Shown here one piece after another: positions 6,606 through 54,361 of a DNA stretch of 64,000 nt. Origin of the DNA: Buchnera aphidicola (Mindarus abietinus) (lineage in GTDB: Bacteria > Pseudomonadota > Gammaproteobacteria > Enterobacterales > Enterobacteriaceae); assembly GCF_964059085.1 (NCBI RefSeq), contig NZ_OZ060398.1, positions 299,171-363,170 of the forward strand. The letters run 5' to 3'. The notes below the pieces were generated by a model. That model searched no databases. It was not told where the DNA came from and worked only from the letters and a program-made list of their open reading frames with translations. Positions within the stretch are counted from its first letter, which is position 1. The number at the start of each line of letters is the position of its first letter. Made by a program: the position numbers and the translations under genes.

Positions 6606-7303
6606 TTATATTTTATTTATTTTTAAAATTCCATCTTTTAAAAAAATATCTACAGTTTTTCCTATAAATATTTTTGGTATTTTATCCTTAACAAAATATT
6701 CTCCAGCAATAGAAATTAATTCTGATGACAAATTTAGACAAAAAATATGACTTGAAAGATCTCCTCTTGCACCTGCTAAAGCTCTTCCGTTTATTTTTCC
6801 ATATACATGAATATTTCCACTTGCTATAACTTCTCCTCCTGCATTAACATTATTGATAACTATTAAATCTCCATCAGGAACATAAATTTTTTGACCTGAT
6901 CGAATTGGAAAATTAATAATCTTAGAATTTTTAACATTTTTTTTTGCAAAAATATTTTTTTTTTATGTATTTTTTTTAAAAATAAATTAAATATTTTTTT
7001 TTCTTCTAAAAAAATAGGAATATTTTTTTTTTCTGTTTCTAATGCAACCCATTCTTTAGTACAATTAACTATTCCAATTATTAATAATCCTAAAGAAGAT
7101 AAGTTATTTTTTAATTTTTCTAAATTAATTTCTTTTTTTAAAAAAGATAAATTTATTATTAAAGGAGTTTTATAAAAAAAAATAGAAAATTTTTTTATTT
7201 TTTTTTCTAATTCTTCTTGAACTTTATCTATATTATGACTGAGTAAAAAAAGAACTAATATAGTAAAAGAATTACTTGTTAATTTAATAAAATTTTTTTT
7301 CAT
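6606..7303 (-). CDS. minC: septum inhibitor MinC, frame interrupted at an A10 tract
   Basis: Inhibits FtsZ polymerisation away from mid-cell when bound to MinD. The N-terminal domain is read from the ATG at 7303 (KLTSNSFTILVLFL, then LGLLIIGIVNCTKEW as in E. coli LRVIGVSGCKD). The C-terminal MinD-binding domain continues in another frame from the tract to a stop at 6606-6608, and contains PIRSGQKIYVPDGDL, NIHVYGKINGRALAGA and SIAGEYFVKDKIP. The break lies at a run of ten A residues on the coding strand (T's at 6955-6964); one extra A would restore a protein of about 232 residues, normal length. No other stop is seen in either part. It could be rescued by slippage, be a recent pseudogene, or be a sequencing error. 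Confidence 0.85.
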
Positions 7304-7478
7304 ATCTTATAATTTTTTATATAATATTTAATTAAAATAATTTAGTATAGTTATACATAAATTTTTATATAAAATATAGATTTTTTATTTATTTAATTTT
7401 TTTTTAAATCAATAAAAAAATTAAAAAAGATTTTAAATAGAAAACTATGAAAAATACATTTATGAAATTTCTGAAAAT

Positions 7479-8495
7479 ATGAATAAGATAAAAATATCTA
7501 ATACTACCGCTTTGTTAGTTAAAAATAAAAATATTTTTTTTAATAAAAAAATATTTTTTTCAGGTTTAAGTAATATTGAAGTTTTTAATAAATTAAATTT
7601 AAAATTTATTAGAGTTCATACATATAAATACAATATTTGGAAAGAACTAAAAAAAAAAAATATTTATGTCACTTACAAGCTACTAGCTAATAAAAGTTCT
7701 ATTGAAAATAGCGAAATATTGATTTTTTACTGGAAAAAAAATGTGTTGGAAAATATTTTTCAATTAGTCAATTTAATTTCTTTATTTCCTATCCGATCTA
7801 ATATCTATATAATAGGAAAAAATAAAAGTGGAATTAAAAGTAGTATAGGTAAGTTAAAAAAATGGATTATTTGTGAAAAAATAGATTTTTTGAGAAAATG
7901 TTCCCTAATCCATGGAACAATTCAAAAAAAAATAATATTTTTAAAAGAAGAGTTTATTAAAGTATTCTTTTGGGAAAACTTAAATATATATTTTTTTCCT
8001 GGAGTTTTTAGCTATAATAAAATAGATGAAGGAAGTAAATTACTGCTATCTACTTTTACAAAAAAAATTGAAGGAGAAGTTTTAGATATTGGTTGTGGAA
8101 ATGGAATTTTATCTGCTTATTTATTAAGCAAAAAAATAAATAAAATAAAAATAACGCTTTCTGATATTCATTTAGCAGCAATCGAATCAAGTAAATTAAC
8201 TTTTAAAAAAAATAAATTAAAAGGAAATATTTTATCAAGCGATGTATATTCGAATATTAAGAAAAAATTTAATCTAATTATTTCTAATATTCCTATTCAT
8301 CAAGATTTAAATATTGAATTAAAAACTGGTATTTCTATTATTAAAAAATCTATTAATTATCTAAAAGATAAAGGAGAATTAAGAATTGTCATAAACTCTT
8401 TTATAAATATTTCAAAAATTTTTAAAAAAAATTTTAAAAATTATAGAATTTTAAAAAAAACAAAAAAGTTTATTGTTTTTCAAGGTTTTAAATAA
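7479..8495 (+). CDS. rsmC: 16S rRNA m2G1207 methyltransferase RsmC (degenerate motif)
   Basis: Homologue of RsmC, which methylates N2 of G1207 in 16S rRNA using S-adenosylmethionine. It has 338 residues (E. coli 343). The weak N-terminal pseudo-methyltransferase half is followed by a C-terminal Rossmann domain with the SAM-binding motif VLDIGCGNGILSAYL (about 202-216). The expected catalytic NPPFH motif after LIIS is changed to NIPIH (about 269-273), then GELRIVIN matches GELRIVAN of E. coli. The frame is intact although it contains an A12 tract near 7649. The altered motif makes activity doubtful. It lies just upstream of the oppositely oriented tRNA-Leu. Confidence 0.85.
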   Translation: MNKIKISNTTALLVKNKNIFFNKKIFFSGLSNIEVFNKLNLKFIRVHTYKYNIWKELKKKNIYVTYKLLANKSSIENSEILIFYWKKNVLENIFQLVNLISLFPIRSNIYIIGKNKSGIKSSIGKLKKWIICEKIDFLRKCSLIHGTIQKKIIFLKEEFIKVFFWENLNIYFFPGVFSYNKIDEGSKLLLSTFTKKIEGEVLDIGCGNGILSAYLLSKKINKIKITLSDIHLAAIESSKLTFKKNKLKGNILSSDVYSNIKKKFNLIISNIPIHQDLNIELKTGISIIKKSINYLKDKGELRIVINSFINISKIFKKNFKNYRILKKTKKFIVFQGFK

Positions 8496-8513
8496 ACATA
8501 TGTATAAGATACA

Positions 8514-8598
8514 TACCCGGAGCGGGATTTGAACCCGCAAAGCTATTAAAGCCGAGGGATTTTAAGTCCCTTGTGTCTACCAATTTCACCATCCGGGC
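8514..8598 (-). tRNA. leuZ: tRNA-Leu (UAA)
   Basis: 85 nt cloverleaf with acceptor GCCCGGA paired to TCCGGGT, long class II variable arm, GGTTCAAATCC T-arm and anticodon TAA in the loop CTTAAAA, giving UUA/UUG decoding. CCA is not encoded. Neighbouring tRNA-Cys upstream in the same orientation matches the cysT-leuZ order of E. coli. Confidence 0.95.
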
Positions 8599-8611
8599 AA
8601 AATATTTTTTT

Positions 8612-8682
8612 AGGCGCATCCCGGAATTGAACCGAGTTATACGGATTTGCAGTCCGCCGCATCACCAATCTGCCAACGCGCC
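8612..8682 (-). tRNA. cysT: tRNA-Cys (GCA)
   Basis: 71 nt cloverleaf with acceptor GGCGCGT paired to ATGCGCC, T-arm GGTTCAATTCC, anticodon GCA, and U73 as discriminator, the identity base of tRNA-Cys. It lies 13 bases upstream of tRNA-Leu(UAA) and is probably cotranscribed with it. Confidence 0.95.
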
Positions 8683-8825
8683 AAATGATACTGATTTTAA
8701 TCTTCATTATATCAATAATTTTAAAATCAAACAACTGAATTCTTTTAAAAAAGAAATTTTTTTTAAAATAATTTAAAGACTAAACTTTACAGTTTAAGCA
8801 TTCCAGTTTATAATTTAATTTGATA

Positions 8826-8910
8826 GGAGGGGTGGCCGAGTGGTTGAAGGCAGCGGTCTTGAAAACCGCCGATGAGAAATTATCCGAGAGTTCGAATCTC
8901 TCTCCCTCCG
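8826..8910 (+). tRNA. serT: tRNA-Ser (UGA)
   Basis: 85 nt class II tRNA with GGAGGGG acceptor, extended variable arm (GATGAGAAATTATC), TTCGAATCT T-loop region, anticodon TGA in the loop CTTGAAA, and discriminator G. Decodes UCA and, by wobble, other UCN codons. Confidence 0.95.
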
Positions 8911-9457
8911 AAAAATATATGTTTAAAAAATAATTTTTAAATTTACTTATTAAGTAATAGTACTTTTTTTAAAAAAATTTAAAAAATAAAATATATTTAA
9001 TAAATATTTTCAAAAAAAATATTTATATTTTTCTAGTTAGAATTTATAAAATAAATAAAAAATTTTTATTTTTGATAAAAATTAACTAAATAAAAAAAAT
9101 TAACTAATTTTTCTATGCAAGAAATCTATTCTTTATTAAAAGAAATAATAAAAAAAATGATGTTTAATCTTATTAAAAAATAAAAGATAGATCAATCTAT
9201 CTTTAATATAGATAGATCGTATCTAAAAAAAAATAATATTAAGATTATAAAAAATAAAATATCTATATCTATAACTATAAAAAATCTATATTTCTATATG
9301 CAATAAATTTATTCTAATTTTCGATTACTAGATTATATAAAAGTTATATTAGTAATAAATACTACTAGTTTTAAAAAAAAACTAATTAAAAATTTTTTTT
9401 TAATAAAAAAAATATTTTTTAAACATTATATATAAATTTACTTATATTTTTTTTAAA
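8911..9457. other. gene-free spacer where flagellar genes upstream of flgH would lie
   Basis: About 550 bases of A/T-rich sequence. Flagellar operons of enterobacteria carry flgB to flgG immediately before flgH, and none is recognisable here. A 22-codon ATG ORF at 9115-9183 has no recognisable similarity. An inverted repeat is described separately. The remainder looks like decayed DNA plus the flgHI promoter. Confidence 0.5.
9183..9204. repeat. short inverted repeat with nearby partial copies
   Basis: AAAGATAGAT (9183-9192) and ATCTATCTTT (9195-9204) are perfect inverted arms around CA. A further GATAGATC lies at 9211-9218. It is the most G/C-containing structure in the spacer. It could be a transcript end for tRNA-Ser, a protein-binding site, or chance. 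Confidence 0.4.
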
Positions 9458-10161
9458 ATGAAAAAAAAAACAATATTTAAAGTTTTTCCCATAATATTTT
9501 TTATACTCTGTATAAACAATTTTTTTTTATTAAAAAAATTTAGTAAAAAAAAGAAATGTATTTCTACTAATAATTTAATTTGTATTGTTGATATCAATAA
9601 AAAAAAAAAATTTATTTAGCAAAATATATTCATATTTTAAAAAAAAAACATTATTTAATTTTTGAAAAATATCAACCTAATTATTCGATTGGAGATACAT
9701 TGATTATGATCATGCAAGAAAATATTGTAATTGGAAAGCATGCTAATTTAAATTTTTCAGAAAATAAAACTATTAATACTAAATTAGGATTTACAGGTTT
9801 AAACTATTTTTTTAAAAAAATATTTCAAAAAAATAAAATTAATTTATATCGGTATAAAAAAGATAAAATTTCAACAAAAAAAAATTTTTTTAAAAATAGT
9901 TCATTTACAAGTATGATAACAGTTACTATAAATAAAATTAAATCTAATGGAAATTTAAATTTTATCGGAAAGAAAAAGATTATGATTAATGATCATAAAG
10001 AAGTTTTGTATGTTTCAGGAACAATAGATCCTAAAAATATAAGTAAAAAAAAATTAATTAATTCTATTCAAGTAGCTAATTTAAATATTAAATATTTTGA
10101 AAGCAAAAAAAATAACTCAAAAAAAATTAATTGGTTTAAAAATTTTTTTTCTTTTTTTTAA
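9458..10161 (+). CDS. flgH: flagellar L-ring protein FlgH, frame interrupted at an A12 tract
   Basis: Outer-membrane L-ring component of the flagellar basal body. Residues from IGDTLIMIMQEN through VTINKIKSNGNLNFIGKKKIMIN and ending NWFKNFFSFF match E. coli FlgH (IGDTLTIVLQEN, GNLHVVGEKQIAIN, WLQRFF). The N-terminal part starts at ATG 9458 with a basic, hydrophobic leader (KVFPIIFFILCINNFFLL) in a different frame. The two frames meet at twelve A residues (9599-9610); thirteen would join them into about 234 residues, close to normal. The upstream frame otherwise stops at 9617. No lipobox cysteine is obvious at the usual place. Only flgI follows; the rest of the flagellar operon is missing here. 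Confidence 0.8.
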
Positions 10162-10243
10162 AAAATAAAAATATATTTCATACTTAATGAAAATTTAAAA
10201 CTTTAAAAAAATTTTTTTAGAAAAAATTTCTAAGGAAATATTT

Positions 10244-11304
10244 ATGATATTAATTAAATTAATTTATATTTGTATTATTATAACTTTAAGCAAAATATCA
10301 ATTTGTCAAGCAGAAAAAATTCAAAATTTAACTGATATTAAGGGAATTCAAGAAAATCAACTTATCGGATATGGACTGGTTGCAGGATTAAAGGGTACAG
10401 GAGATTCTTATTCCCCAATAGCATTTAGTAATCATATTATTCATAATATGTTATCTCAATTAGGTATTAAAATACCGGTTAATAGAAATACTTCTTTAAA
10501 TAATGTAGCTTCAGTTATAGTTACAGCTAACTTACCATATTTTAGTTCATTAGGGGGAACTATCGACGTTAATGTAGCTTCAATAGGAGATGCAAAAAAT
10601 TTAGAAGGAGGAACTCTTTTATTAACTCCATTAAAAAATGTAGATAATAAAATCTATGCTTTTGCTCAAGGTCTAATCCTTAAAAAAAAAATAAAATTTC
10701 AAAATATTTCAAAAAAATCTAATTTTTATACGATTAATTATTATTCTGTTAAAAATGGAGCAATCATAAGAAAAGAAATAAAAAACGATCTATTTGATAA
10801 AAAAAGTTTTAAATTACAACTAAAAAAAGAAAATTTTTTATTATCTAAAAAAATTAGCGATTGTATTAATTTACATTATCCAAATATATCTGTCCCGATA
10901 AACTCAAAAACTATTAAAATAAAAAATTTTTTTAAAAAAAAAAATTAATAGAAATTATTTCTAATATTCAAAAAATAGATATAAAAACTCCTAAAAAAAA
11001 TTCAAATATTATTTTTAATTTTCATACTAATTCTATCATTTTAAATTCAAAAGTTAAGTTACATTCATGTATTATAATAAATAAAAAATTTTTATTAATT
11101 ATTAATCATAAAAAAAAGTATCCTATTAACTTTACTTTATTAAAAAAAATTAAAAAAAATCAAAAAATAAAAAAGAAAAAATTAAATTTATTTAATATTA
11201 TTCAAATTTTAAATTATTATAAAATACAATATTTTGATATTTTTAAAATATTGAAAACTATGCATTATGCTGGTTGTTTCCCAAATAAGGTAAAGGAAAA
11301 ATAG
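10244..11304 (+). CDS. flgI: flagellar P-ring protein FlgI, frame interrupted at an A11 tract
   Basis: Periplasmic P-ring component, normally exported with a signal peptide (here LIKLIYICIIITLSKISICQA). The first 229 residues match FlgI: ENQLIGYGLVAGLKGTGDS, LSQLGIKIP, ASVIVTANLPYFSSLGGTIDVNVASIGDAKNLEGGTL-like sequence. After eleven A's at 10934-10944 the frame ends at TAA 10946-10948. The rest continues in another frame to TAG 11302-11304 and contains IILNSKVKLHSC and, at the end, MHYAGCFPNKVKE, matching MQSAGCLRAKLEI of E. coli. One extra A restores about 353 residues. A good ribosome-binding site (AAGGA) precedes the ATG, and a strong terminator follows. Confidence 0.82.
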
Positions 11305-11364
11305 AAAATTTTTTTAGGGAAAATAAAATTTATTTTAAAAAATATTAACTACTTTTTATGGAAA

Positions 11365-11407
11365 AATTAATATAAAACTTATGAAATAGTTTTATATTAA
11401 TTTTTTC
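11365..11407 (+). terminator. intrinsic terminator downstream of flgI
   Basis: Arms AATTAATATAAAACT (11365-11379) and AGTTTTATATTAATT (11388-11402) make a perfect 15 bp stem with an 8 nt loop, followed by TTTTC and more T's. It lies between the convergent flgI and rne and has its U-tract on the flgI side. Confidence 0.75.
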
Positions 11408-11413
11408 TTTATA

Positions 11414-14287
11414 TTAATTTTTAATAGGCTTACTAGTAGTAAAACTAGAAATATTTACTGCTGCATGAACACCAGCTGCTTTATTTTTTTTATATATTTT
11501 AAGTATATTTTTATTTTTATTTTTTAAAAAAAAATCAGTATCCTTAAATAATAAAGATGCTTTTGTAACTGGAGAATTTGCATAATTTTTTTGAAATACA
11601 ATATTTTTATTCTTTTCAGGAAAACATAAATTATTTTTTAAACAACAAATTTTTTTTTGTTTTTCAATTAATTTGAAATTAAAAAAAATATTTTTCTTAT
11701 AAAAAATATTTTTTTTATATAAATGTTTGATTATTTTTTTTATATATTTAACTTGTTTATTTATAATTAATTTTGAAAAATAAAAACTTTTAATGTTTAA
11801 GAAATTTAAGTTTATTTTTATTTTTTTTTCATGTTTAAGTTTAAACGAAATATTATACATTTTAAGAAATACATTATTTGTTGAAAATAAAGAAATAAAA
11901 GTTTTTCTTTTTATTATTTTAAAAAAATTATTTTCGTTCAAAAATATTTTTGTTATGTTTATATATTGAGTAAAAAAATTTATAAAATTTTTATTTTTAT
12001 TATTTTTATTTAACAAAAAAAAATATTTATAAAAAAAACAAATAGGGAAATTATAGTAAAAAAAATATGAATCATAAAAAGTATTATATAACTGCAAATA
12101 AAAGAATATTTTTGAAATCTTATTATATTCTTGAAAATTATTTAATTTATATTTCTTAAACATATACATGTCTTCTTTTTTAAAGAAAATAAAGTTACAA
12201 TATTTTTGTAAAAAAAAAGAATTTTTATAGAAAAAAAAACTTTTCTTTATATTTATTTTAAACAAAATTTTTTTCTCTACTTTTTTTAAAAAATTTATAG
12301 TAATTTTTTTAGAAAAAAATTCTTTTTCATATTTTTTATAAATCTTATTCTTTAAACTAATCAATTCTTGTATTATAAAAGGAATGGAATTATTTTTTTT
12401 GTAATTTTTATCGATTTTAATTACATTTTCTTTATTAAAAAAAATATTTTTTTTTAGATAAAATCTATCTTTTTTCTTTTGATAACTACAAATCGGAGCA
12501 ATTTCTTTTTTAATTTTTTTTCTTGTTAAAATACATTTAGATGCCTTACTGATAATATCATTTGACTTAATGATAGATAAACTAACATAAGAAAATAAAT
12601 TTTTTTCTATTTTATTTTTTAAATTTATATTTTTTTTATCTTTTTTAAGAAAATTAAAATAATTATTTTCTGTATTATTTTTTAATAATAAAGATTTTTT
12701 AAAACTTGAATATTCATTTTGTTTTTTTTCAATATTTCCTGTTTTAAAATCAGTTAAAAAATTACTACGATAAAATTTTGGTAAATGATAACTAATTGAC
12801 TGTATTTTTTCCCCTTTTCTTATTCTTAAAACCGAATAATTAGGAGTTTTCATTTGATTATTAGGAATAATAATTATTTTTCCTGAAAATTGACGTTTTT
12901 CTATTGAATTAACAGCTTCTCTTTTTTCATTCAATAAATAACAAGCAATTTCTATTGGAACAATAGCATGAATTTCACATGTATTTTCTTTTAATGATTC
13001 TTCCTCTATAATGCGTAAAATAGATAATGATAAAGATTCATTATCTCTAATAGTGCCTGTTCCTGTACACCTTGGACAAATATGATAACTAGATTCACGA
13101 AGTGAAGAACTAATACGCTGGCGAGACATCTCTAATAGTCCAAATTTAGATATAGATCCTATCTGAACTCGTGCTTTATCATGATAAACTACTTCTTTTA
13201 ATTTATTTTCAATTTTTTTTTGACTTTCTAAAACCAACATATCAATAAAATCAATAACAATTAACCCCCCCAAATCTCTTAATCTTAATTGTCTAGCTAT
13301 CTCATCTACTGCTTCTACATTAGTATTAAACGCTGTTTCTTCAATATCTATTCCCTTTGTAGAACGAGAAGAATTAATATCAATTGCTGTTAATGCTTCA
13401 GTAGTATCAATAACTATTGATCCTCCTGAAGGTAATCTTACCTCTCTTTGAAAAGCAGAACTAATTTGTGATTCTATCTGGTAATAACTAAATAAAGGAA
13501 TATCTCCTGTATATAATTTAATTTTGTTCCTAAAATCAGGTCTTCCTAAAAAACTAATATGCTGTTTGGCTGTTTTAACTATATCAGGATTATCAATTAA
13601 AATTTCTCCTATATCTTGACATAAATAATCCCTAAATGCTCTTACAATAATGTTACTTTCTTGATGAATTAAAAAAGGAGCCGATTTATTTTTTGAAGAT
13701 TTAATAATTGCATCCCAATGTTTCATTCTAATGTCAAGATCCCATTGCAATAACTCTAAAGATTTTCCAAGCCCGGCAGTTCTAATAATTAATCCCATAT
13801 TTTTAGGTAAATTTAGTAAAGATATTAATTCTTTTATCTCTGCTCTATTTGAACCTTCTATTCTTCTAGAAATTCCAGTAATTTTTGGATTATTTGGCAT
13901 TAATACTAAATAACTACCTGCTAAGCTAATAAAAGTGGTTAAAGCAGCTCCTTTATTACCTCTTTCTTCTTTAGATACTTGAACAATTATTTCCTGTCCT
14001 TCTCTCAATACATTTTTAATATGAGTATTAGAAGAGAAAGAAACATTAGAAAGAAAATAATCCTTAGAAACCTCTTTAAAAGGCAAAAATCCATGTTTTT
14101 CTGAACCGTAATCTATAAAAATAGCTTCTAAGCTAGGTTCTATTCTAGTGATTTTACCTTTATAAATACTAGATTTCTTTTGTTCATATCCAAAATGTTC
14201 TATATCTAAATCATATAATCGTTGTCCATCAACAAGAGCAACTCTTAATTCTTCTTGTTGAGTAGCGTTAATTAACATTCTTTTCAT
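11414..14287 (-). CDS. rne: ribonuclease E
   Basis: Endoribonuclease initiating mRNA decay and processing tRNA and rRNA precursors. The N-terminal catalytic half (about residues 1-510) is well conserved: S1 domain ([29 protein letters not shown] split around 36-75), 5'-sensor region, DNase I-like catalytic site with [10 protein letters not shown] and [11 protein letters not shown] carrying the metal-binding aspartates, and the zinc link CPRCTGTGT. The C-terminal half (about 511-900) is low-complexity Lys/Asn/Phe sequence with no clear helicase or enolase site, but the last residues (NSPVTKAS, then [13 protein letters not shown]) resemble the PNPase-binding tail of E. coli RNase E. Length 957 versus 1061. 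The frame is open throughout despite many A tracts, so the tail is probably selected. Confidence 0.95.
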
Positions 14288-14834
14288 TAAAAAATCTCTT
14301 ATTTTTATATAAAATTAAAATTTATTTAAATTATATTAAAATCAAATAAAAAGTGTAAAAAATATTCATAAAAAATACTTTTCATTTTTTATAAAAAGTT
14401 AAAAAATAAAAATTTTTAAAATTTTTGGTTTAACTATTTTTTTTAGAAATTAAATAAAAAAATATTTTTTTTCCATTAATATCAAATGTAACAAAATTAT
14501 TTTTTATGTTATAAATATATAAATAATTAATGCATAAGAAAAGCTTAGAATATATTAATAAAAATTATTAGTGACTAAAAAAAATATATCGGAAATATTC
14601 AATTATTAAATATAATTAATTTATTATTTAAAATAAAAATATTTGAAAAAATATTTTTTATAAAAATATTAGAATGTTTTTTACACTTATTCTTTATAAA
14701 AATACAAAAAATTAATTTAATTTTTTTAAATTAATATATTTATATTTTATTAAATAATAAATATTATATTAAAAATTTTATAAACTATTTCAGTTTTTTT
14801 TAATATAAATAGAAATATTTTGAGAAAATAATAA
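14288..14834. other. divergent intergenic region rne/rluC
   Basis: About 550 bases with no ORF or RNA gene I can recognise. In E. coli this interval holds the long rne leader whose hairpins let RNase E limit its own mRNA. The size here is similar, but I see only A/T-rich sequence and no convincing counterpart of those hairpins. Confidence 0.5.
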
Positions 14835-16330: not shown

Positions 16331-17261
16331 ATGAAAGAATATGCTATGATTTTTTCTGGACAAGGTTTTTATTCTTCTTATATACCAGAAATTTTTAAAA
16401 AAAATATACCGATAATTAAAAAAACTTTTGATTTAGCTTCTTCTTGTATTGAATATAATTTATGGAATGGTTTAAAAAAAAATGAAATATCAAATCAAAA
16501 AAACAAAGAATATCTTCAACCTTTATTATTAACAATTTCAGTTGCTTTATTTAAACTATGGATAAAAAAAAAATTTTCCTATTATTGCTGCTGGGCATAG
16601 TTTAGGAGAATATTCTGCATTAGTTTGTTCTAGAGTAATAAAATTTACTCAAGCTATTAAATTAATTAAGTTAAGATCTGGTCTTATGCATACTATAACT
16701 AAAAAATATCCAGGATCAACTCAAGTAATTATAGGACTAGAAAAGGAAATTATAAAAAATCTTTGTTTTAAACTTTCTAAAAGAGGAGTGGTATCACCAG
16801 CAGCATTCAATTCAAAAAATCAAATCCTAATTTCTGGAGATAAAAATACAGTAGAAAAAATGATTTTTTTATGTAAAAAATTGGGTGCTAAAAAAATAAT
16901 TAATTTAAATATTAATACTCCTGTACATTGTATCTTTATGAAAGAAATTTCAAAAAAAATGTTTTTAGCATTAGAAAAAATAACTTTTCATCCTCCTATT
17001 TTTCCAATTATCAATAATGTAGACGTAAAATGTGAATTTTGTTCAAAAAAAATTAAAGATGCTTTAATACGTCAATTGTATAACCCTGTAAGATGGGATG
17101 AAACTATTAATGTAATTGTTTCTTATAATATACATTCAATAATAGAGGTTGGTCCTAGTAAAGTACTAAGTAATTTAAATAAAAAAATAGGAAATATTTT
17201 ATCAATTTCTTTATATAAAAATAAAAATTTTTTACTAAATATAGGAGAAAAAAATGAATAA
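16331..17261 (+). CDS. fabD: malonyl-CoA:ACP transacylase FabD, frame interrupted at an A10 tract
   Basis: Transfers malonyl from CoA to acyl carrier protein for fatty acid synthesis. The first part, from ATG 16331 with AAGGA upstream, has FSGQGFYSSY and LLLTISVALFKLWIKK. After ten A's (16564-16573) the frame runs into a stop at 16598-16600, but another frame continues at once as FPIIAAGHSLGEYSALVCSRVI, which holds the catalytic serine, then SPAAFNSKNQILISG and NNVDVKCE and LVRQLYNPVRWDE-like sequence to 17261. One fewer A restores about 309 residues, the usual length. Its stop overlaps the fabG start by eight bases. Loss of this enzyme should be lethal, so rescue or a sequence error is likely. 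Confidence 0.88.
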
Positions 17262-17979
17262 AAAAATTGTTTTAATTACTGGAGCAACTCAAGGAATAGG
17301 AAGATCAATTGCCGAAGGTTTTATAAAAAAAAAAAATTAGTAATAGGGATGTGTTCTTCTAATAAAAACAAAATAATAATAGAAAAATATCTGAAAAAAA
17401 ATGGAATAGGAATGGTATGTAACATTCAAGATTCATTTTCAGTAAGAGAGTGTATTAATTATATAAATATAAATTTTGGTTCAATTGACATATTGATAAA
17501 CAATGCAGGGATAGCTAAAAACAAACTATTATTTAATACAACTTTATCAGAATGGAATGAATCTTTGTTAACTAATTTAACATCTGTATTTCTTTTATCT
17601 AAATTAGTATTAAGAAACATGATAAAAAAAAAATGGTAGAATTATTACCATTGGCTCTATCATAGGGCAGATAGGTAATATTGGTCAAACTAGTTATGCT
17701 GCTTCTAAATCAGCATTAATTGGATTTAATAAATCTTTAGCCTTAGAAGTTGCTAGATTTGGAATTACTGTAAATTTAGTATTTCCTGGATTTATTAAAA
17801 CAAAGATGACTGATAATCTGAATCAATCTCTAATAAAAAAATATTTATCTAAAATACCTACCCGAAAATTTGGAACTCCTTCAGATGTTTCTAATGCTGT
17901 TCTATTTTTAGCTTCTGAAAAAGCATCGTATATAACTGGACAAACTCTCCATGTAAATGGAGGAATGTATATGATATAA
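17254..17979 (+). CDS. fabG: 3-oxoacyl-ACP reductase FabG, two A-tract frameshifts
   Basis: NADPH-dependent reduction of 3-oxoacyl-ACP in fatty acid elongation; short-chain dehydrogenase family. Three segments in succession match the family: MNKKIVLITGATQGIGRSIAEG (nucleotide site) in one frame; IDILINNAGIAKNKLL and LTSVFLLSKL in a second; RIITIGS, QTSYAASKSALIGF with the catalytic Tyr and Lys, and YITGQTLHVNGGMYMI in the first frame again. The breaks are at A12 (17325-17336, needs one more A) and A10 (17624-17633, needs one fewer). The two shifts cancel, so the whole gene has correct overall length (about 242 residues) but a mis-framed middle third. It starts inside the end of fabD and is followed by acpP. 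Confidence 0.88.
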
Positions 17980-18014: not shown

Positions 18015-18266
18015 ATGATTAATATTGAAAAGAAAATTAAAAAAGTTATATCTCGACAGTTTGATAAAAAAATAGAAAAATTAAATAATTCCACTAAATT
18101 AATAGATGATCTTAAAGCTGATTCTTTGGATATAATTGAATTTTTTATGTCTTTAGAGGAAGAATTTAATATAAGTATTCCTGATGAAGAAATGGAAAAA
18201 ATTATTGATATTCAATCTGCTATAATATATGTACATAAAAAAATAAAAAAAATATCTGATCCATAG
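18015..18266 (+). CDS. acpP: acyl carrier protein
   Basis: Carries growing acyl chains on a 4'-phosphopantetheine attached to the serine of DSLD (about residue 41). The 83-residue acidic product aligns with E. coli ACP (78 residues) through LIDDLKADSLDIIEFFMSLEEEF and IPDEEMEKI. The C terminus is slightly longer and more basic than usual. It follows fabG by 35 bases. fabF, next in E. coli, is absent here; tmk follows instead. Confidence 0.95.
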   Translation: MINIEKKIKKVISRQFDKKIEKLNNSTKLIDDLKADSLDIIEFFMSLEEEFNISIPDEEMEKIIDIQSAIIYVHKKIKKISDP

Positions 18267-18971: not shown

Positions 18972-18972
18972 T

Positions 18973-45063: not shown

Positions 45064-45680
45064 CTATATTTTTCGTCCGACTGCTACAATGAAAACTTCT
45101 CTAGAAGAAGACCGAGAAGAATTTGGTTTATAAATATTTACTTTTAAAAAAAGTAAACGTAATTTTTGAATATATTCAGAAAATCCAGTTCCTTGAAATA
45201 ACTTGATTAAAAAAACTCCCTTTTCTACTAAAATTTCTTTAGTTAAATCTAAAGCTAATTCAGATAATTGAAACATTTTAACTATATCGATAGTGGAATA
45301 ACCAGATATATTTGGAGCCATATCTGACATAACTAAATTAACTTTTTTATTATTTTCTAAAAAAAACTTAAAATTTTTTTTTTATTAATATTTTCTTGAA
45401 AAAATAAAACACCTGGAATTGGTTTCATAGGTCGAATATCATAAGCAGCTATCCAACCTTTTTTACCAATTATTTTAATAGCATATTCAGACCAACTACC
45501 AGGAGCAGATCCTAAATCAACTATTGACATTCCTTTTTTTAAAATTTTAAATTTTTCTTGAATTTCCTTTAATTTGAACCATGCTCTAGAACGATAATTT
45601 AATCTATTTCGTTCCTTAACAAAAAAGTCTTGAAAATATTTTTTTAACCATTTCTTTTTTTTACATTTTTTTTTTAACAT
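45064..45680 (-). CDS. rlmE: 23S rRNA 2'-O-methyltransferase RlmE, frame interrupted at an A10 tract
   Basis: Methylates the ribose of U2552 in the A-site loop of 23S rRNA; loss in E. coli slows 50S maturation. N-terminal part: YRSRAWFKLKEIQEKF with catalytic Lys38 equivalent, SAM motif VDLGSAPGSWSEYA (about 49-62), and YDIRPMKPIPGV. After ten A's on the coding strand (T's at 45374-45383) the frame stops in a few codons; the next frame continues FFLENNKKVNLVMSDMAPNISG with the catalytic aspartate, LIKLFQGTGF with a second catalytic lysine, and SSRSSSREVFIVAVGRKI. One extra A restores about 205 residues (E. coli 209). Confidence 0.87.
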
Positions 45681-45720
45681 AATTAATTAATACCATATTT
45701 TAAAAAAAATTAAAAAAATT

Positions 45721-45756: not shown

Positions 45757-45798
45757 TATTACCTTGCAACGTAAATATTAAATATTTTTTAAAAAAAA

Positions 45799-46620: not shown

Positions 46621-46872
46621 ATGAAAAAAATAATAAAATCTTTGCTACTGAAAGCAATACCATTAAAAAAAGTTTATATTAAGGGAGATGATTATCACTT
46701 AATAATAATAGCAATTGGAAAAATATTTATTAATAAGAATGAAAGGGAAAGACAACAAAAAATATATTCTCCTTTAAAAACATTAATTTTAAGTAACAAA
46801 ATACACGCTCTCACAATCGAGACTTACTCTCCTAAAGAATGGGAGGAATATGAGAAAAAAAATAAAATTTAA
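46621..46872 (+). CDS. ibaG: BolA-family protein IbaG (YrbA)
   Basis: Small class II KH-fold protein of the BolA family, thought to work with monothiol glutaredoxins in iron-sulfur and acid stress responses. The start at 46621 gives 83 residues beginning MKKIIKSLLLKAIPLKKVYIKGDD; a TTG at 46609 is in frame but unlikely. VYIKGDDYHLIIIAIG, RQQKIYSPLKTLI and IHALTIETYSPKEWEEYEK match E. coli VHVSGDGSHFQVIAVG, KQQTVYGPLMEYI and IHAVSIKAYTPAEW. The histidine of SHF and the conserved Cys/His ligand near the C terminus can be compared: TIETYSP has no cysteine, as in IbaG. In E. coli murA follows directly; here it does not. Confidence 0.9.
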   Translation: MKKIIKSLLLKAIPLKKVYIKGDDYHLIIIAIGKIFINKNERERQQKIYSPLKTLILSNKIHALTIETYSPKEWEEYEKKNKI

Positions 46873-47845
46873 TATTTTTAAAATAAATATTTTTAAAACA
46901 AAAAAATTTATATTTTTTTATTAAAAAATAAATAAAAATAAAGAAAATATAAAATAAACTATTGATTAAATACTAGTATTTAATTAAATCTAAAAAAATT
47001 CATTTAAAAATTTCAAAAATATTAAAACAAAATATTTTTTATATTAGTAAAATAAAAAAAAAAGATCTTTAATCTTCATTTAAAATTCATGCTTTTTAGA
47101 AATATATATAAAAATTTTAAATAAAAATTTAATAACAGAATATTAATTAATATTTTTAAAAAGAATTAACTATTATTAAAAATAAAAGCGACTTGTTTTT
47201 TAAAAAATAAGAAAAAAATATTTTTTTTTCCTAATTAATAACTTTTTATTTTTATTTAAAGATAATATTTAACATATTAAGTTTAATTAGAGTTTAAATA
47301 AACTATTCAAAAAAAAAAAGAATTTCACTAAATATAAATTTAAATTTTTTTTAAAATATTAAGATTTTTAAATAATATATTAAAAATATTTTAAAAAAAT
47401 TTAAGTATTTCTTAACTAAAAATTAAAAGCATAACTTATTAGAAAAAAATATTTTTTACTAAATAAATGTTAAAACTATAAATAATAGTAAATTAAATTT
47501 ATTACATATATTTGTATTAATTATTAATTTTTATTATTTATATTGTTATAATATTAATAATATTAACTATATAACAATATATTGAAATATATAAATGTTA
47601 TCATTATTCAATAATAAGTTATTAACTATAATAATTTCTTTAATAATTCCTTTTTTTTACTTTTAAATAAATAAAAATAATATTATTTAACCCATTAAAT
47701 TTATTAAATCAAAATAAAGTTTTAATATTTTAATTATTTTAATTATTATATAATTAATTATTAAATATTTTTTAGATTTTTTTTACATATATTAAAAAAA
47801 ATAAATATATGTCTAAAAGATTTTTCGATAAAAATGGAGTAAAAT
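46873..47845. other. 973-bp gene-free spacer between ibaG and rplU (site of lost murA)
   Basis: The longest gap in the window. In E. coli murA follows ibaG, and then ispB lies divergent from rplU. I found no frame of useful length and no murA motif on either strand. The sequence is almost only A/T, with runs of T and A and several short palindromes (for example ATATTAATAATATTAACTAT near 47550). It is presumably erased murA plus the rplU-rpmA promoter. Confidence 0.6.
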
Positions 47846-48184
47846 ATGCATGCGGTTTTTCAAAGTGGTGGAAAACAATACAAGGTAAATATAGGACAGA
47901 TAGTTCGTTTAGAAAAATTAAATTTTTCTGTTGGGGAAAACATTATATTCAATAATATTTTACTTATTTCTAACTCATCTTATGTAGAAATAGGATCTCC
48001 TAATATTTTAGGAAGTGAGATTAAAGCTAATATATTACGTCATGGAAAATGCAAAAAAATTAATATTATTAAATTTAATCGTAGAAAACATTACAAAAAA
48101 AAACAAGGACATCGGCAATTATTTACTGATGTAAAAATTTTAGATATTAATTATTTAAATAGAGATATCAAAAATGGCACATAA
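47846..48184 (+). CDS. rplU: 50S ribosomal protein L21
   Basis: Large-subunit protein binding domains of 23S rRNA with L20. 112 residues (E. coli 103). [25 protein letters not shown] (split) and [23 protein letters not shown] match the family; the extra residues are at the C terminus. Its last 11 bases overlap the start of rpmA, so the pair is translationally coupled. Confidence 0.97.
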
Positions 48185-48428
48185 AAAAGCAGGTGGTTCT
48201 ACTAGAAATGGGAGAGATTCTCACTCCCAGAGATTAGGTATAAAATGTTTCGGAGGACAATTTATACCGGCAGGTAGTATTATAGTACGTCAAAGAGGAA
48301 CTAAATTTCATCCCGGAAAAAATGCTTCTTGTGGAAAAGATCACACTATTTTTGCAACTAAAAGTGGTAAAGTTAAATTTGAAATTAAAGGCTTAAAAAA
48401 AAGAAAGTATGTAAGCATCACTAATTAA
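48174..48428 (+). CDS. rpmA: 50S ribosomal protein L27
   Basis: Large-subunit protein whose N-terminal tail reaches the peptidyl transferase centre. 84 residues (E. coli 85). [20 protein letters not shown] and [27 protein letters not shown] (split) are nearly identical to E. coli. It starts in the end of rplU and is followed by a long hairpin. yhbE, next in E. coli before obgE, is missing. Confidence 0.98.
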
Positions 48429-48465
48429 TAATTAATAACTTATTATTATAAATAAATATATTTTT

Positions 48466-48517
48466 ATTCAACTTAATAAAAAAATAATTTTAAAATTATT
48501 TTTTTTTTAAGTTGAAT
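48466..48517 (+). terminator. 52-nt near-perfect palindrome, terminator of rplU-rpmA
   Basis: Left half begins ATTCAACTTAATAAAAAAAT and right half ends TTAAGTTGAAT; the 26-base halves are inverted copies with one mismatch and no spacer. The right half includes a run of T's. It starts 38 bases after rpmA, so it probably terminates the rplU-rpmA transcript and separates it from obgE. Confidence 0.7.
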
Positions 48518-48546
48518 TTAAAAATTCAAATAATTAATTTATTTAA

Positions 48547-49608
<1,062 letters not shown>

Positions 49609-49660
49609 ATTTATTTATATAAATATTTTAAATTTTTTAATACAATATTAAAAACGTTAT

Positions 49661-49696
49661 TTTAATAATCTAATCTATTGTGATTAGATTATTAAA
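49661..49696. terminator. bidirectional hairpin between obgE and rpsI
   Basis: TTTAATAATCTAATC (49661-49675) pairs perfectly with GATTAGATTATTAAA (49682-49696), a 15 bp stem and 6 nt loop centred between two convergent genes. The right arm is followed by AAAAA on the plus strand, and the left arm is preceded by T's, so it may serve both transcripts. Confidence 0.65.
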
Positions 49697-49705
49697 AAAT
49701 TATAT

Positions 49706-50098
49706 TTATCGTTTAGAAAATTGAGGACGTTTTCTTGATTTTCGAAACCCTACTTTTTTTCGTTCAACTTTTCGAGAATCTCTAGTTACAAAACCAGCTT
49801 TTCTTAATTCTTTTCTAAATGAATTATCATAAGATATTAAGGCTTTAGTAACACCTTGTCGAATAGCTCCTGCCTGTCCAGAGATTCCTCCTCCTTTAAC
49901 TGTAATATATAAATCAAATTTTTTTAACATATTAATTAATTGTAAAGGTTGTAAAACAACCATGCATGATGTTTTTCTACCGAAATATTTTTCTAATGAA
50001 AAGTTATTAACCGTTATATTTCCAATGCCTTTTTTTAAAAAAACTCTAGCCGAAGAACTTTTTCTACGACCTGTTCCATAATTTTTTTCTTCATTCAT
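49706..50098 (-). CDS. rpsI: 30S ribosomal protein S9
   Basis: Small-subunit protein whose basic tail touches P-site tRNA. 130 residues, same as E. coli. [18 protein letters not shown] at the N terminus, [23 protein letters not shown] in the middle, and the tail [22 protein letters not shown] (split) ending in the invariant SKR. Thirteen bases after rplM. Confidence 0.98.
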
Positions 50099-50111
50099 TT
50101 TCTTGCCTTAA

Positions 50112-50540
50112 TTAAATTATTATTTTTTTTGGATTTTGAGCCATATGGTTATGTTGATTTTCATCATAAATTTTTAATTTTTTTAACATTGATTGTCCTA
50201 AAATTCCTTTTGGTAACATTCCTTTAATGGCATTTTTTAATATTTTAGAAGGATTAGTAGTAATTAAATCTTTAAAACTTTTTTTCTTTATTCCCCCGAC
50301 ATAACCTGTATGATGATAATAAATTTTATTTTTATATTTATTTCCCGTAACCATAATTTTTTTTGCATTTAATATAATAACGTAATCTCCAGTATCTAGA
50401 TGAGGAGTATATATTTCTTTGTGCTTTCCTCGAAGTAATTTAGCAATTTGACTAGCAAAACGTCCTAAAATTTTGCCTGAAGCATCGATAACATACCAAT
50501 CAGGAAAAAAATTTTGTTTTTTAACCAAATAAGTTTTCAT
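50112..50540 (-). CDS. rplM: 50S ribosomal protein L13
   Basis: Early-assembling large-subunit protein. 142 residues, same as E. coli. WYVIDASGKILGRFASQIAKLLRGKHK (split), DTGDYVIILNAKKIMVTGNK, and MLPKGILGQSMLKKLKIY match. First gene of the rplM-rpsI pair. In E. coli L13 or S9 is not a known autoregulator; no leader structure is seen. Confidence 0.98.
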   Translation of the reverse strand: MKTYLVKKQNFFPDWYVIDASGKILGRFASQIAKLLRGKHKEIYTPHLDTGDYVIILNAKKIMVTGNKYKNKIYYHHTGYVGGIKKKSFKDLITTNPSKILKNAIKGMLPKGILGQSMLKKLKIYDENQHNHMAQNPKKIII

Positions 50541-50868
50541 AATATACCTAAATATTAATAAGATTGATAAAAGTGTAAATAATATTTTTTTTCATTATAT
50601 AATAATTAATGTTCATAAAAATATATCATAAACTATTTCTATATATATATGTATCTTTTAAAATTATGCCGAATAAAAAAAAATTATTTATTTTTTGATA
50701 ATTTTTGTTATTAAAAAACTATATAAATATATAAAATTTTTAAAAAAATTAAATATAATTATATAATTAAAAAGTTTTTGTAAAAAAATAAAAAATATAA
50801 ATATAGATTTTTTATTTTCTTAAAAATAAACTCTATATTTTAAACTAAAATACTAAGAGTAATAAAAT
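50541..50868. other. divergent spacer rplM/pheA with a hairpin before pheA
   Basis: About 330 bases without an ORF. Near pheA an interrupted stem is formed by AAATATAGA (50799-50807) with TCTATATTT (50832-50840), and inside it TTTATTTT with AAAATAAA. The start codon follows 28 bases later. No phenylalanine-rich leader peptide like pheL of E. coli and no following U-tract were seen, so attenuation is not supported. Confidence 0.5.
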
Positions 50869-51996
50869 ATGAATACAAATAATCCATTACTAACATTAAG
50901 AGAAAAAATTAATTTAATAAATAAAAAAATAATATCTCTTTTATCAAAACGACAATTATTAACTATAGAAATAGCAAAAACAAAATTAATGATTAATCAT
51001 TCAATAAGAGATGAAAATAGGGAAAAAAAAATGTTTGAATCGTTAGTTAATATAGGAGAAAAATATGGAATCGAAAAAAAATATATTTTAGATATTTTTA
51101 ATATTATAATTGATCAATCTATATCCATACAAAAAAAATTTATAGAAAAGAAGAAAAATATTTCTAAAAAGAATGTTTCAATATCTTTTTTAGGACCTAA
51201 AGGATCATACTCTTATTATGCATCCTGTGAATACGCAATAAAAAAGAATAAAAAAATATTTAAGAAAAATTGTTCTTCTTTTGAAGAAGTATTTAAAAAT
51301 ATAGAAAACAATTCATCAAATATTGGAATACTTCCTATAGAAAATAGTTGCACAGGATCTATTTTTGAAATTTATAATTTATTAAGCCAATATAGAGTAT
51401 TTATAATTGAAAAATTTAAGATTCCAATTAAACATTGTTTATTAGGAATAACTAATGCTAATTTTAATACAATTAAAACAATTTATAGTCATACTCAACC
51501 ATTTCAACAATGTGAAAAGTTTATCAAACTATTTCCTAATTGGAAAATAAAAAATGTAGAAAGTACCGCTGCTGCCATGAAAAAAATTGCTTTTTTACAA
51601 TCTGTAAATATCGCTGCAATAGGTAGCCCAATAGGTGCTAAACTCTATAACTTAAAAATTATACAAAAAAATATTTCTAATAAAACTAATAATTTCACTA
51701 AATTTATTGCTATTTCTAAAAAAAAATTTTTAGATTTAAATGATTTTTCTAAAAAAATAATGATGACATTTACTATTAAAAATGAATCAAAAAACTTTAT
51801 ATCCTTATTTTTATTATTTAATAAATACAATATTTCTATTAATAAATTTGAATTATTAAATATATCTAGTTTAAAAAATGAAAAAAAAATATTATTAGAA
51901 ATAAAAAATAATTTTAAATCTTTTAAAATAGAAGACTTTTTAGAAAAAATTAAAACTTTTTCGAATCATTTTAAAATTATTGGTTTATATAAATAA
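50869..51996 (+). CDS. pheA: bifunctional chorismate mutase / prephenate dehydratase
   Basis: Converts chorismate to prephenate and prephenate to phenylpyruvate, the committed steps to phenylalanine, an essential amino acid for the insect host. 375 residues (E. coli 386). Chorismate mutase domain about 1-90 (TLREKINLINKKIISLL). Dehydratase domain about 105-285 (FLGPKGSYSYYA, ENSCTGSIFEIYNLL, STAAAMKKIA, NNFTKF in place of NFTRF). The C-terminal ACT domain is poorly conserved: the GALV motif aligns with KNFI and ESRP with ELLN, both of which bind phenylalanine in E. coli. Feedback inhibition is therefore probably weak or absent. tyrA, its divergent neighbour in E. coli, is missing. Confidence 0.95.
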   Translation: MNTNNPLLTLREKINLINKKIISLLSKRQLLTIEIAKTKLMINHSIRDENREKKMFESLVNIGEKYGIEKKYILDIFNIIIDQSISIQKKFIEKKKNISKKNVSISFLGPKGSYSYYASCEYAIKKNKKIFKKNCSSFEEVFKNIENNSSNIGILPIENSCTGSIFEIYNLLSQYRVFIIEKFKIPIKHCLLGITNANFNTIKTIYSHTQPFQQCEKFIKLFPNWKIKNVESTAAAMKKIAFLQSVNIAAIGSPIGAKLYNLKIIQKNISNKTNNFTKFIAISKKKFLDLNDFSKKIMMTFTIKNESKNFISLFLLFNKYNISINKFELLNISSLKNEKKILLEIKNNFKSFKIEDFLEKIKTFSNHFKIIGLYK

Positions 51997-52116
51997 ATAT
52001 AAATATATTTATTAAAAAAAAAATTTATAAAAAACATTTTTATATTAATTATTTTTTAAAATATAAAGTTTAAATAAATAATATTAATTATAAAAAATTT
52101 TGGAGAGAAATAAAAA

Positions 52117-53466
52117 ATGTTTGAAAATTTAAGTAAAAAATTATCTTTTATTTTAAATAAAATTAAAAATCAAGGAAGATTAACAGAAAAAAACATTACT
52201 GATTCATTAAGAGAAATTAGAAGAACTTTATTGGAAGCAGATGTTTCTTTACCTATTATTAAAATTTTTATTAATGAAGTTTCGAAAAAATCTATAGGTA
52301 AAGAAATTAATAATAATTTAACACCTGGACAAGAGTTTATTAAAATAATTAAAAATGAACTAATTAAAATTATGGGAGAAAAAAATAATAAATTAAATTT
52401 TTCAGTTCAGCCTCCAGCAATAATTTTATTAGTTGGATTACAAGGAGCGGGAAAAACCACTACTATAGGGAAATTAGCAAAATTTATTAAGGAAAATTAT
52501 AAAAAGAAAATACTTATAACTTCTTTAGATATATACCGCCCTGCAGCCATAGAACAATTAAATATTTTATCAAAAAAAATAAAAATTGATTTTTTTTTCA
52601 CTTCTTTAACAGAAAAACCTATAAATATAGCTCAATCAGCAAAACAATATGCCGAAAATAATTTTTATGAAATACTTTTAATCGATACTGCTGGAAGATT
52701 ACATATAGATCAAAAAATGATGAAAGAAATTATTAATATTAAAAAATCCATATCTCCTATTGAAACATTATTAATAATAGATTCTATGACAGGACAAGAT
52801 GGAATGAACATTTCTAAAACATTTAATGAATTATTATCTATATCAGGAATCATTATAACTAAAATTGATGGTGATTCTAGGGGAGGAGTGGCTTTATCAG
52901 CTCGATATACGACTAAAAAACCTATTAAGTTTATAGGAACTGGAGAAAAATTAAGTGATTTAAAACCTTTTTGTCCTAAAGAAATAGCGGAAAGAATCTT
53001 AGGTATGAAAAATATTCTTTCATTTATAAAAAATATTGAAAAAAAGATTTCCTATCCTAACACAACATTTTTTAACAAAGATTTAACAAAGAAGAACAAA
53101 TTTAATTTAAATGATTTTTACAAGCAAATTAATAAAATTCAAAAAATAAAGGGAGTTACATCTTTTATTAGAAATTTTCCAAATAAAACAAATATACCTA
53201 ATGTTGGAAACATACAAGAAATAAATAAAAAAACGTTATTTAAAATGAAATATATTATTAATTCTATGACAAAACAAGAAAAGTTAAAACCTAATATCAT
53301 TAAAGGATCCAGAAAAAAAAGAATTTCTATCGGTTCAGGTACAACAGTACAGGATGTTAATAAGCTACTAAAACAATTTGAAATAATGAAGAGATTGATT
53401 AAAAAAATTAAAAAAAACGGAATTCGTAATATTTGGAAAAACATAAAAAGTTATTTAACTTATTAA
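52117..53466 (+). CDS. ffh: signal recognition particle protein Ffh
   Basis: GTPase that binds 4.5S RNA and signal sequences to target inner-membrane proteins. 449 residues (E. coli 453). N domain, then G domain with GLQGAGKTTTIGKLA (about 107-121), DIYRPAA, DTAGRLHID and TKIDGDSRGG. The M domain keeps the RNA-binding GSRKKRISIGSGTTVQDVNKLLKQF but has only about four methionines, the usual Met positions being Ile, Phe or Asn. A good GGAG ribosome-binding site precedes the ATG. Followed by rpsP as in E. coli. Confidence 0.96.
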   Translation: MFENLSKKLSFILNKIKNQGRLTEKNITDSLREIRRTLLEADVSLPIIKIFINEVSKKSIGKEINNNLTPGQEFIKIIKNELIKIMGEKNNKLNFSVQPPAIILLVGLQGAGKTTTIGKLAKFIKENYKKKILITSLDIYRPAAIEQLNILSKKIKIDFFFTSLTEKPINIAQSAKQYAENNFYEILLIDTAGRLHIDQKMMKEIINIKKSISPIETLLIIDSMTGQDGMNISKTFNELLSISGIIITKIDGDSRGGVALSARYTTKKPIKFIGTGEKLSDLKPFCPKEIAERILGMKNILSFIKNIEKKISYPNTTFFNKDLTKKNKFNLNDFYKQINKIQKIKGVTSFIRNFPNKTNIPNVGNIQEINKKTLFKMKYIINSMTKQEKLKPNIIKGSRKKRISIGSGTTVQDVNKLLKQFEIMKRLIKKIKKNGIRNIWKNIKSYLTY

Positions 53467-53569
53467 AAATATTCGAAATTAATGTTTTTTTACTTTATAA
53501 AATGAATAATTTATTCTGTTGAAAAGGTATGATATAATTATTTTTTCAAAAAAAAATAGGAAAAAAATT

Positions 53570-53812
53570 ATGGTTAAAATTAGATTAACTAGAAATGGAG
53601 TTAAAAAAAAGCCATTTTATCAAATTATAGTTACTGATAGTAGAAAATCAAGAAATGGAAAATTTATTGAAAAAATTGGATTTTTTACTCCTTTTAAAAA
53701 TAAAAAAGAAAAACATACTCGAGTTAATTTAGAAAGAATCATTTATTGGCAACAAAAAGGAGCACAATTATCAGAAAAAGTAAAACAGATAATTAAAAAA
53801 AATAAAATTTAA
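53570..53812 (+). CDS. rpsP: 30S ribosomal protein S16
   Basis: Small-subunit assembly protein. 80 residues from ATG 53570 (E. coli 82): [21 protein letters not shown] matches [21 protein letters not shown] (both shown to 21 or fewer residues of similarity), then [14 protein letters not shown]. An upstream in-frame ATG at 53519 is unlikely because AGGA lies just before 53570. First of the rpsP-rimM-trmD-rplS operon; four bases separate it from rimM. Confidence 0.96.
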
Positions 53813-53816
53813 AAAA

Positions 53817-54361
53817 ATGAAATTTAATCAAAAAAAAAATATTGAATCTTTTATAATTATAGGAAAAATTGGATCACCATACGGAATAAAAGGATTTATT
53901 AAAATTTTTTCTTATACTGAAAAAAAAGAAAATATTTTTAATTATCTTCCTTGGTTTATCAAAAAAAAAAATTTGAAAAAATTTTAATAACTTGTTGGAA
54001 GAAAACAAAAAAATATTTTTTAGTAAAAATTAAAGATTTTTTAGATCGAGAACAATTGAAAATATTTACTAATGAAAATATTTGGATCAATAAAAATCAA
54101 TTACCTATTTTAAAAAAAAATGAATATTATTGGAATCAAATAATTGGTTTATCAGTTTTAAATATGAAAAGAAAAAAAATAGGTGTTATAGTCGATCTGA
54201 TAGATAATAATAGTTTTTATGATATTTTAATCATTAAAAATGTCTTGACTATTTCTAGCAATTTTTTTTATATTCCTTTTATTGAAAAAGAAATAGTTAA
54301 GGAAATTAATATTCAAAAAAATTATATTTTGATAGATTGGGAAAATTATGTCAAAAAATGA
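53817..54361 (+). CDS. rimM: 16S rRNA processing factor RimM, frame interrupted at an A11 tract
   Basis: Binds S19 and helps mature the 30S head. From ATG 53817 the first frame reads [36 protein letters not shown] (split), matching VLGKMGSTYGIRGWLRVFS and FDYQPWF of E. coli. At eleven A's (53961-53971) the frame ends within a few codons, and the next frame continues [45 protein letters not shown] and [12 protein letters not shown] to TGA 54359-54361. The PRC-barrel half is thus in the second frame. One extra A restores about 182 residues, the normal size. The stop overlaps the presumed trmD start. Confidence 0.86.

Follow-up and report, generated by a model that had tools for sequence, protein, structure and literature searches.

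Frame breaks in the window

The window analysed here is a stretch of 64,000 nucleotides from Buchnera aphidicola of the conifer aphid Mindarus abietinus, positions 299171-363170 of contig C1 in a genome of 551,523 bases and four contigs (G000). An initial annotation, made from the sequence alone, listed eight frame breaks in it, in minC, flgH, flgI, fabD, fabG (two sites), rlmE and rimM, all in A tracts of otherwise intact genes, and proposed that they may form a large set of transcript-corrected genes. All eight named runs are present in the DNA, and at each of the eight sites the downstream frame is offset as claimed, by 2 (modulo 3) at six of them and by 1 at fabD and the second fabG site (Table 1). 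The idea of a single set did not survive comparison with two other symbionts of the same genus: four of the breaks (minC, fabD and both in fabG) are common to three species and four are not. With prmC and ung, which lie elsewhere on the chromosome, six off-frame sites in five genes are common to the three species within the 264 kb that we surveyed.

The two comparison genomes are G001, taken as the M. japonicus symbiont CP135030 (chromosome of 541,202 bases), and G002, taken as the M. keteleerifoliae symbiont CP135027 (542,511 bases); the accessible part of PMC11193766 gives Illumina NovaSeq as the platform for both accessions. The window is collinear with G001 at 86% DNA identity and with G002 at 80%. 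The 6.4-kb contig of G000 is a leucine plasmid that is most similar to those of Buchnera of M. japonicus (87.9%) and M. keteleerifoliae (82%). The survey comprised the window and two further stretches of its chromosome, of 80 kb and 120 kb, set against the corresponding parts of G001 and G002. Upstream and downstream parts of each gene were searched separately in the three species and the downstream offset was taken modulo 3. Antisense and rRNA matches in the frame scans were removed by eye, and frame changes between adjacent open reading frames (ORFs) without an A or T run were counted as neighbouring genes and not individually checked.

Table 1. Genes with a frame break and the homopolymers concerned. 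Positions are those of the window unless a contig is named; offsets are those of the downstream frame (modulo 3) in G000/G001/G002.
Feature	Position	Strand	Offset	Remarks
minC	6606-7303	-	2/2/2	N- and C-terminal domains in different frames
minC linker	6937-6964	-		Contains coding A10 (6955-6964; T10 on the plus strand) and A9 (6937-6945); break inside linker
flgH	9458-10161	+	2 in G000	Frame changes at A12, 9599-9610; upstream part only weakly matched in G001 (E 0.034), unmatched in G002; G001 probably in frame
flgI	10244-11304	+	2/0/no match	Frame changes at A11, 10934-10944; in frame in G001
fabD (malonyl-CoA:ACP transacylase)	16331-17261	+	1/1/1	Two frames, same offset in three species
fabD tract, A10	16564-16573	+		Identical (A10T4) in three species
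fabG (3-ketoacyl-ACP reductase)	17254-17979	+		Three frames
fabG first tract, A12	17325-17336	+	2/2/2	A12TT in G000, A10TTTT in G001, A11TTT in G002
fabG second tract	17624-17633	+	1/1/2	A10 in G000, A10 in G001, A11 in G002; off-frame in all
rlmE (ftsJ)	45064-45683	-	2/0/0	Broken in G000 only
rlmE coding-strand T8	45359-45366	-		Best placement of the frame change; T9 in G001
rimM	53817-54361	+	2/0/0	Broken in G000 only, at A11, 53961-53971
prmC tract, A11	C1:165247-165257 (L147:5248-5258)			Off-frame; run identical in three species, constraint beyond
ung tract, A13/A10G/A13 (G000/G001/G002)	C1:179069-179081 (L147:19070-19082)			Off-frame near N-terminus; same total length

In fabD, the motif GHSLG, which we take to be the active-site motif, stands directly past the A10 tract. 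The fabG motifs, whose roles we likewise assume, are distributed over the three pieces: TGATQGIG in the first, NNAG in the second and YAASK in the third, with a frame change between each. With these motifs beyond the breaks or split by them, no single piece would be expected to work. Re-initiation downstream was rejected for fabD, the third piece of fabG and minC, where the first ATG, GTG or TTG lies 40 codons in (past GHSLG), 60 codons in (past YAASK) and 77 codons in, respectively, so that a re-initiated fragment would lack those parts. Re-initiation is possible at prmC, ung and rimM, which have a TTG within the first eight codons of the downstream open frame. The two fabG breaks were also considered as mutually compensating, and this was rejected: their offsets cancel out in G000 and G001, whereas those in G002 do not.

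Each break was confined to a long homopolymer in an otherwise open gene, and the statement that all lie in A tracts holds for most sites. In rlmE, the match of the upstream frame to the congener continues past the coding A10 (45374-45383), and the frame switches at 45360, in a coding-strand T8. In minC, the exact position is ambiguous within a linker of 41 nt that contains both an A10 and an A9. The two sides of the break belong to the same protein family in minC (MinC_N and MinC_C), flgI, rlmE (FtsJ 1-79 and 85-180), rimM (RimM N and PRC) and fabG (adh_short in all three pieces) according to Pfam. In fabD and flgH, the Pfam score comes from the downstream part only; the upstream part of fabD has tblastn matches to FabD-type ORFs in other genera, and that of flgH fell outside the scan.

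Selection beyond the shared breaks

The presence of the minC, fabD and fabG breaks in all three species argues that they predate the split of these species and did not arise in sequencing. Errors are frequent in long A runs, and one of sequencing or assembly is conceivable for the breaks seen in G000 only. At the shared sites, however, the off-frame lengths recur in G001 and G002, taken as published Illumina assemblies, and the off-frame total is kept even where the pure run differs, as at fabG site 1 (A12/A10/A11, with the run edges substituted between species and total length and offset unchanged) and in ung. None of 203 A9 runs in the survey is broken. We therefore rejected sequencing error for the shared sites, where the break stands in three species, two of them taken as Illumina assemblies, and consider it very improbable as a general account.

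To determine constraint, we calculated dN/dS by the method of Nei and Gojobori for G000 against G001 and G002. Beyond the break, the ratios are 0.26 and 0.34 for fabD, 0.15 and 0.28 for the second piece of fabG, 0.09 and 0.12 for its third piece, 0.22 and 0.27 for prmC, 0.22 and 0.26 for ung, and 0.26 and 0.29 for the MinC_C part of minC. Twenty-five intact genes chosen for comparison have medians of 0.18 and 0.25, with ranges of 0.07-0.33 and 0.08-0.46. If the observed substitutions were scattered randomly, 2.3-9.8 stops would be expected per piece; there are no stops in the matched parts of the pieces beyond the shared breaks in any of the three species. The alignments of the shared-break pieces contain a single gap, which lies in prmC upstream of its break. 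For minC, the part before the break (MinC_N, 6971-7303) has dN/dS of 1.22 and 0.93 and is without sign of constraint.

These values bear on the possibility that the genes are plain pseudogenes caught early, the fast-mutating homopolymers having taken the first lesion with decay yet to come. The breaks in flgI, rlmE and rimM, which are not shared, and the lack of a flgI match in G002 fit such a course, as does the fraction of broken runs, which climbs with run length as replication slippage alone predicts. Against it, the breaks in fabD, fabG, prmC and ung are common to species 14-20% apart in DNA, the dN/dS beyond them is that of intact genes and the expected stops are missing. Neither relaxed constraint nor further lesions were found in fabD, fabG, prmC and ung; the upstream part of minC is the exception. 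As a general account, early pseudogenes are unlikely. The comparison with two congeners instead supports the view that fabD, fabG at both sites, minC, prmC and ung would still be used although off-frame. The proposal of transcript-corrected genes is to this extent supported for the window genes fabD, fabG and minC; correction itself is suggested by analogy.

Open frames in other genera place the origin of three of these genes' breaks. The fabD frame spans 229-231 amino acids in the three Mindarus-type genomes and more than 300 in the best match of 55 of 57 other genomes, the exceptions being one of 201 amino acids in a genome that is 49% complete and one genome without a match. The frame of the third fabG piece has 117-125 amino acids in the three species versus 236-259 in the best match of 12 of 12 other genomes, and the prmC frame 227 versus 262-307 (12 of 12). 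As the frames are full-length elsewhere, the breaks in fabD, fabG and prmC arose on the branch leading to this genus. A search for related loci with FabD as query gave none; one with FtsH gave 80, which were left out of the analysis. For ung, 11 of 12 genomes have a match with open frames of 203-273 amino acids, the tract being too near the start to show frame integrity. The upstream ung match is itself short in G001 and G002 (E about 0.03) but stands directly before the tract.

One ketoacyl synthase and an intact acpP (18015-18266) remain in the genome, and a fatty-acid pathway may therefore be in use.

Breaks that are not shared

Absence of decay downstream of a break kept across species was found for minC, fabD, fabG (both sites), prmC and ung, not for rlmE, rimM and flgI, the flgH matches being too weak to assign that gene to either group. 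For flgH, flgI, rlmE and rimM, comparison with the congeners does not separate rescue from recent damage, so that the claim of correction gains nothing from it there. These breaks are younger or lie in decaying genes, and may reflect rescue by the same route or early decay; where a break is confined to one species, recent damage is no less likely than rescue. The flgH-flgI region (9458-11304) seems to decay within the genus: flgI has no match anywhere in the whole G002 genome, and the flgH region of G002 has a 1-nt gap of its own.

Outside the window, the 120-kb sample contained no further clear break common to all three species. Several breaks of narrower distribution were observed. An A14 puts recB out of frame in G000 (L156:13839-13852), while both congeners have the gene in frame. 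In dnaX, the lysine-rich tail shifts frame at an A14 (L158:5101-5114) in G000 and likewise in G001; G002 has no match to this tail. Specific to one congener are breaks in queC in G001 and in holA in G002 (L157:19136-19888 and L156:2291-3304), with two further candidates in G002. Two extra candidates in the 80-kb sample were set aside, one as a change of the C-terminal tail of a gene that, judging from its translation and without family assignment, is presumably queA, and the other as an upstream difference in the start region of a gene.

The window has a GC content of 22% and the gene content of Buchnera. Among the 30 ORFs scanned are zwf, htpX, tsaB, minD, rsmC, flgI, rne, rluC, holB, ptsG, asnS, argF, a DEAD-box helicase gene, pnp, truB, nusA, greA, obgE, pheA, ffh, tldD and rluD; acpP, infB, alaS and ftsH are also present. 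We take the gene order to be that of Buchnera.

Run length and retention

The survey contains 282 coding A runs of at least 9 and 49 coding T runs of that length; from 10 upwards the numbers are 79 and 4. The location of the breaks in A tracts is therefore largely a matter of composition, yet it still exceeds chance. Counting neither rlmE nor two tail cases as broken, and entering minC at A10 even though its A9 is possible, off-frame sites make up 0/203 of the coding runs at A9, 3/56 at A10, 3/9 at A11, 2/10 at A12, 1/2 at A13, 1/3 at A14 and 0/1 at A15.

Every A or T run of at least 9 in the 264 kb was then compared with the congeners, tracts with flanks less than 55% identical being excluded from the counts of tract length and retention. 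With minC left aside, all 5 of the 5 shared off-frame tracts have kept a run of A10 or longer in both congeners, as have 13 of 64 in-frame coding A runs of at least 10 (one-sided Fisher p = 0.0008). Inclusion of minC gives 5 of 6 (p = 0.0035). DNA identity at the shared tracts, taken over the run and 12 bases on each side, averages 0.93 in G001 and 0.89 in G002, compared with 0.86 (permutation p = 0.02) and 0.80 (p = 0.009) at coding runs that are in frame. These tests, like those of tract length below, concern few and phylogenetically tied sites and were done after the sites were known. The length of in-frame coding A runs is unchanged in 249 of 272 cases in G001 and 232 of 261 in G002.

Buchnera cells are polyploid, with many copies of the chromosome. 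A minority of copies with in-frame runs could in principle supply the protein beneath an off-frame consensus, and the run at fabG site 2 does vary in length between species. But the same off-frame consensus stands in three species at 4 of 5 tracts, with the fifth off-frame as well, which is hard to square with freely mixing lengths, and about 70% of noncoding runs changed length (47/65 in G001 and 40/57 in G002). We regard such a mixture at the DNA level as extremely improbable.

Discussion

We find six off-frame sites in Mindarus Buchnera that are shared by three species, with selection beyond the breaks and with long runs retained. If function is kept though the DNA is off-frame, the correct frame has to be regained during decoding in at least some cases. 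Our preferred explanation, to which we give a probability of about 0.65, is a long-lived recoding, most likely by slippage of RNA polymerase, that would keep the shared off-frame genes functional. In the common ancestor of the three species, fabD, minC, prmC, ung and two sites of fabG would have acquired indels, each in an A run of about ten or longer. RNA polymerase would slip on the same run, some transcripts would gain or lose a base, and some full-length protein would result. Selection would then keep the coding sequence beyond the break together with a long uninterrupted run, with little pressure to regain the frame. Slippage can produce either offset, which fits the difference between fabD and fabG site 1 as well as the other offset that G002 has at fabG site 2. 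That it would take place in the RNA and not on the ribosome, and that it would lead to full-length protein, we infer from analogy with related systems.

The frame might instead be shifted by the ribosome as it reads the A run, whether a stimulator assists or not. Runs of at least ten A give slippery sites in every phase, and a -1 shift would bridge the offset at minC, fabG site 1, prmC and ung, and at fabG site 2 in G002. A stem of about 9 bp is predicted directly past the fabD tract in all three species. However, the offset is the opposite one at fabD and, in G000 and G001, at fabG site 2, where a -1 shift, the commoner kind, would not restore the frame; both offsets occur across the sites, and fabG site 2 differs between species. 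Of the tracts folded in three species (fabD, fabG site 2, ung and prmC), only the fabD stem is kept, in sequence constrained by the protein, and the stems predicted past the other three are not. The fabG site 1 and minC tracts were folded in G000 only, and the test concerned stems, with Shine-Dalgarno-like sites outside it. RNA stems as general stimulators were rejected on the lack of conservation. A ribosomal shift is therefore rather unlikely, if less so than the other alternatives. The resemblance to programmed ribosomal frameshifting of the dnaX and prfB type lies in the slippery A run and in a protein that continues in another frame; the present cases differ in that a stimulator is kept only at fabD among the folded sites, both offsets occur and the products look like simple full-length enzymes rather than alternative forms.

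Several points weigh against recoding by polymerase slippage. The upstream part of minC is unconstrained (dN/dS 1.22 and 0.93), FabG would need two corrections within one transcript, and the search for ung in other genera is uninformative as to whether its frame is whole there. The retention test involves five sites with shared ancestry, was made once the data were seen and, limited to runs of at least 11, gives 3 of 3 versus 6 of 15 (p = 0.10). On the same side we list unchanged tract length, found at 5 of 5 shared off-frame tracts versus 18 of 65 noncoding runs of at least 9 in G001 (p = 0.003) and at 4 of 5 versus 17 of 57 in G002 (p = 0.04); for runs of at least 10, p is 0.007 and 0.08, respectively. 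Finally, the accessible part of one study of transcription errors reports that no frame-restoring error was detected in Buchnera (PMC5574713), and is silent on the host aphid and on the coverage of genes comparable to these.

The same part of that study places 151 of 157 transcription insertions of Buchnera in homopolymer runs, with a rate rising exponentially with run length (PMC5574713). Slippage of RNA polymerase has the strongest precedent: a review, as far as its accessible text goes, gives 12-50% corrected transcripts in aphid and ant endosymbionts (PMC5009743). In Blochmannia vafer, eight genes have poly-A/T frameshifts, four of them exclusive to that species, and dnaX is frameshifted in B. 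floridanus too, according to the available portion of PMC3017870; Mindarus Buchnera differs in having six off-frame sites in five genes common to three species within 264 kb.

The kind of phenomenon is already known. Slippage at poly(A) tracts is said to have been described in Buchnera and Blochmannia by Tamas and colleagues in 2008 (PNAS) and by Wernegreen and colleagues in 2010 (MBE). As there, an AT-rich insect endosymbiont carries a single indel in a long A run of a gene otherwise intact, and some of the frameshifts are common to several species. The host lineage, Mindarus, is different, the genes (fabD, fabG, minC, prmC and ung) are apparently different, one gene has two off-frame tracts, and the case is known from DNA alone. 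The comparative case is now stronger than in the initial annotation. A literature search returned no paper joining Buchnera, fabD and frameshift, prmC, ung and minC being outside that search, and the accessible main text of PMC11193766 contains no mention of frameshift, pseudogenes, fabD, fabG or homopolymer.

A more far-reaching view, which we hold only tentatively and think somewhat doubtful, is that the A runs of Mindarus Buchnera have become required recoding elements. Several core genes would have been off-frame from before the divergence of the three species, with uninterrupted runs held by selection, and a run may jump between wrong frames harmlessly, as at fabG site 2 in G002, every frame being available through slippage. 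Each FabG message would have to be corrected twice, independently, and unusually slippery transcription would be tolerated or have evolved.

Taken together, our results replace a list of what might have been assembly errors by a set of putative long-lived off-frame genes that can be tested and that includes two fatty-acid enzymes, a release-factor methylase and a repair enzyme. Published statements on slippage rescue in Buchnera, in the parts accessible, disagree (PMC5574713 versus PMC5009743). Run length, offset and retention can be compared across the three species as in a natural experiment, a comparison relevant to the question of whether core functions may be carried by transcription slippage over the long term. 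Gene calls that mark such off-frame genes as lost would mislead the reconstruction of pathways.

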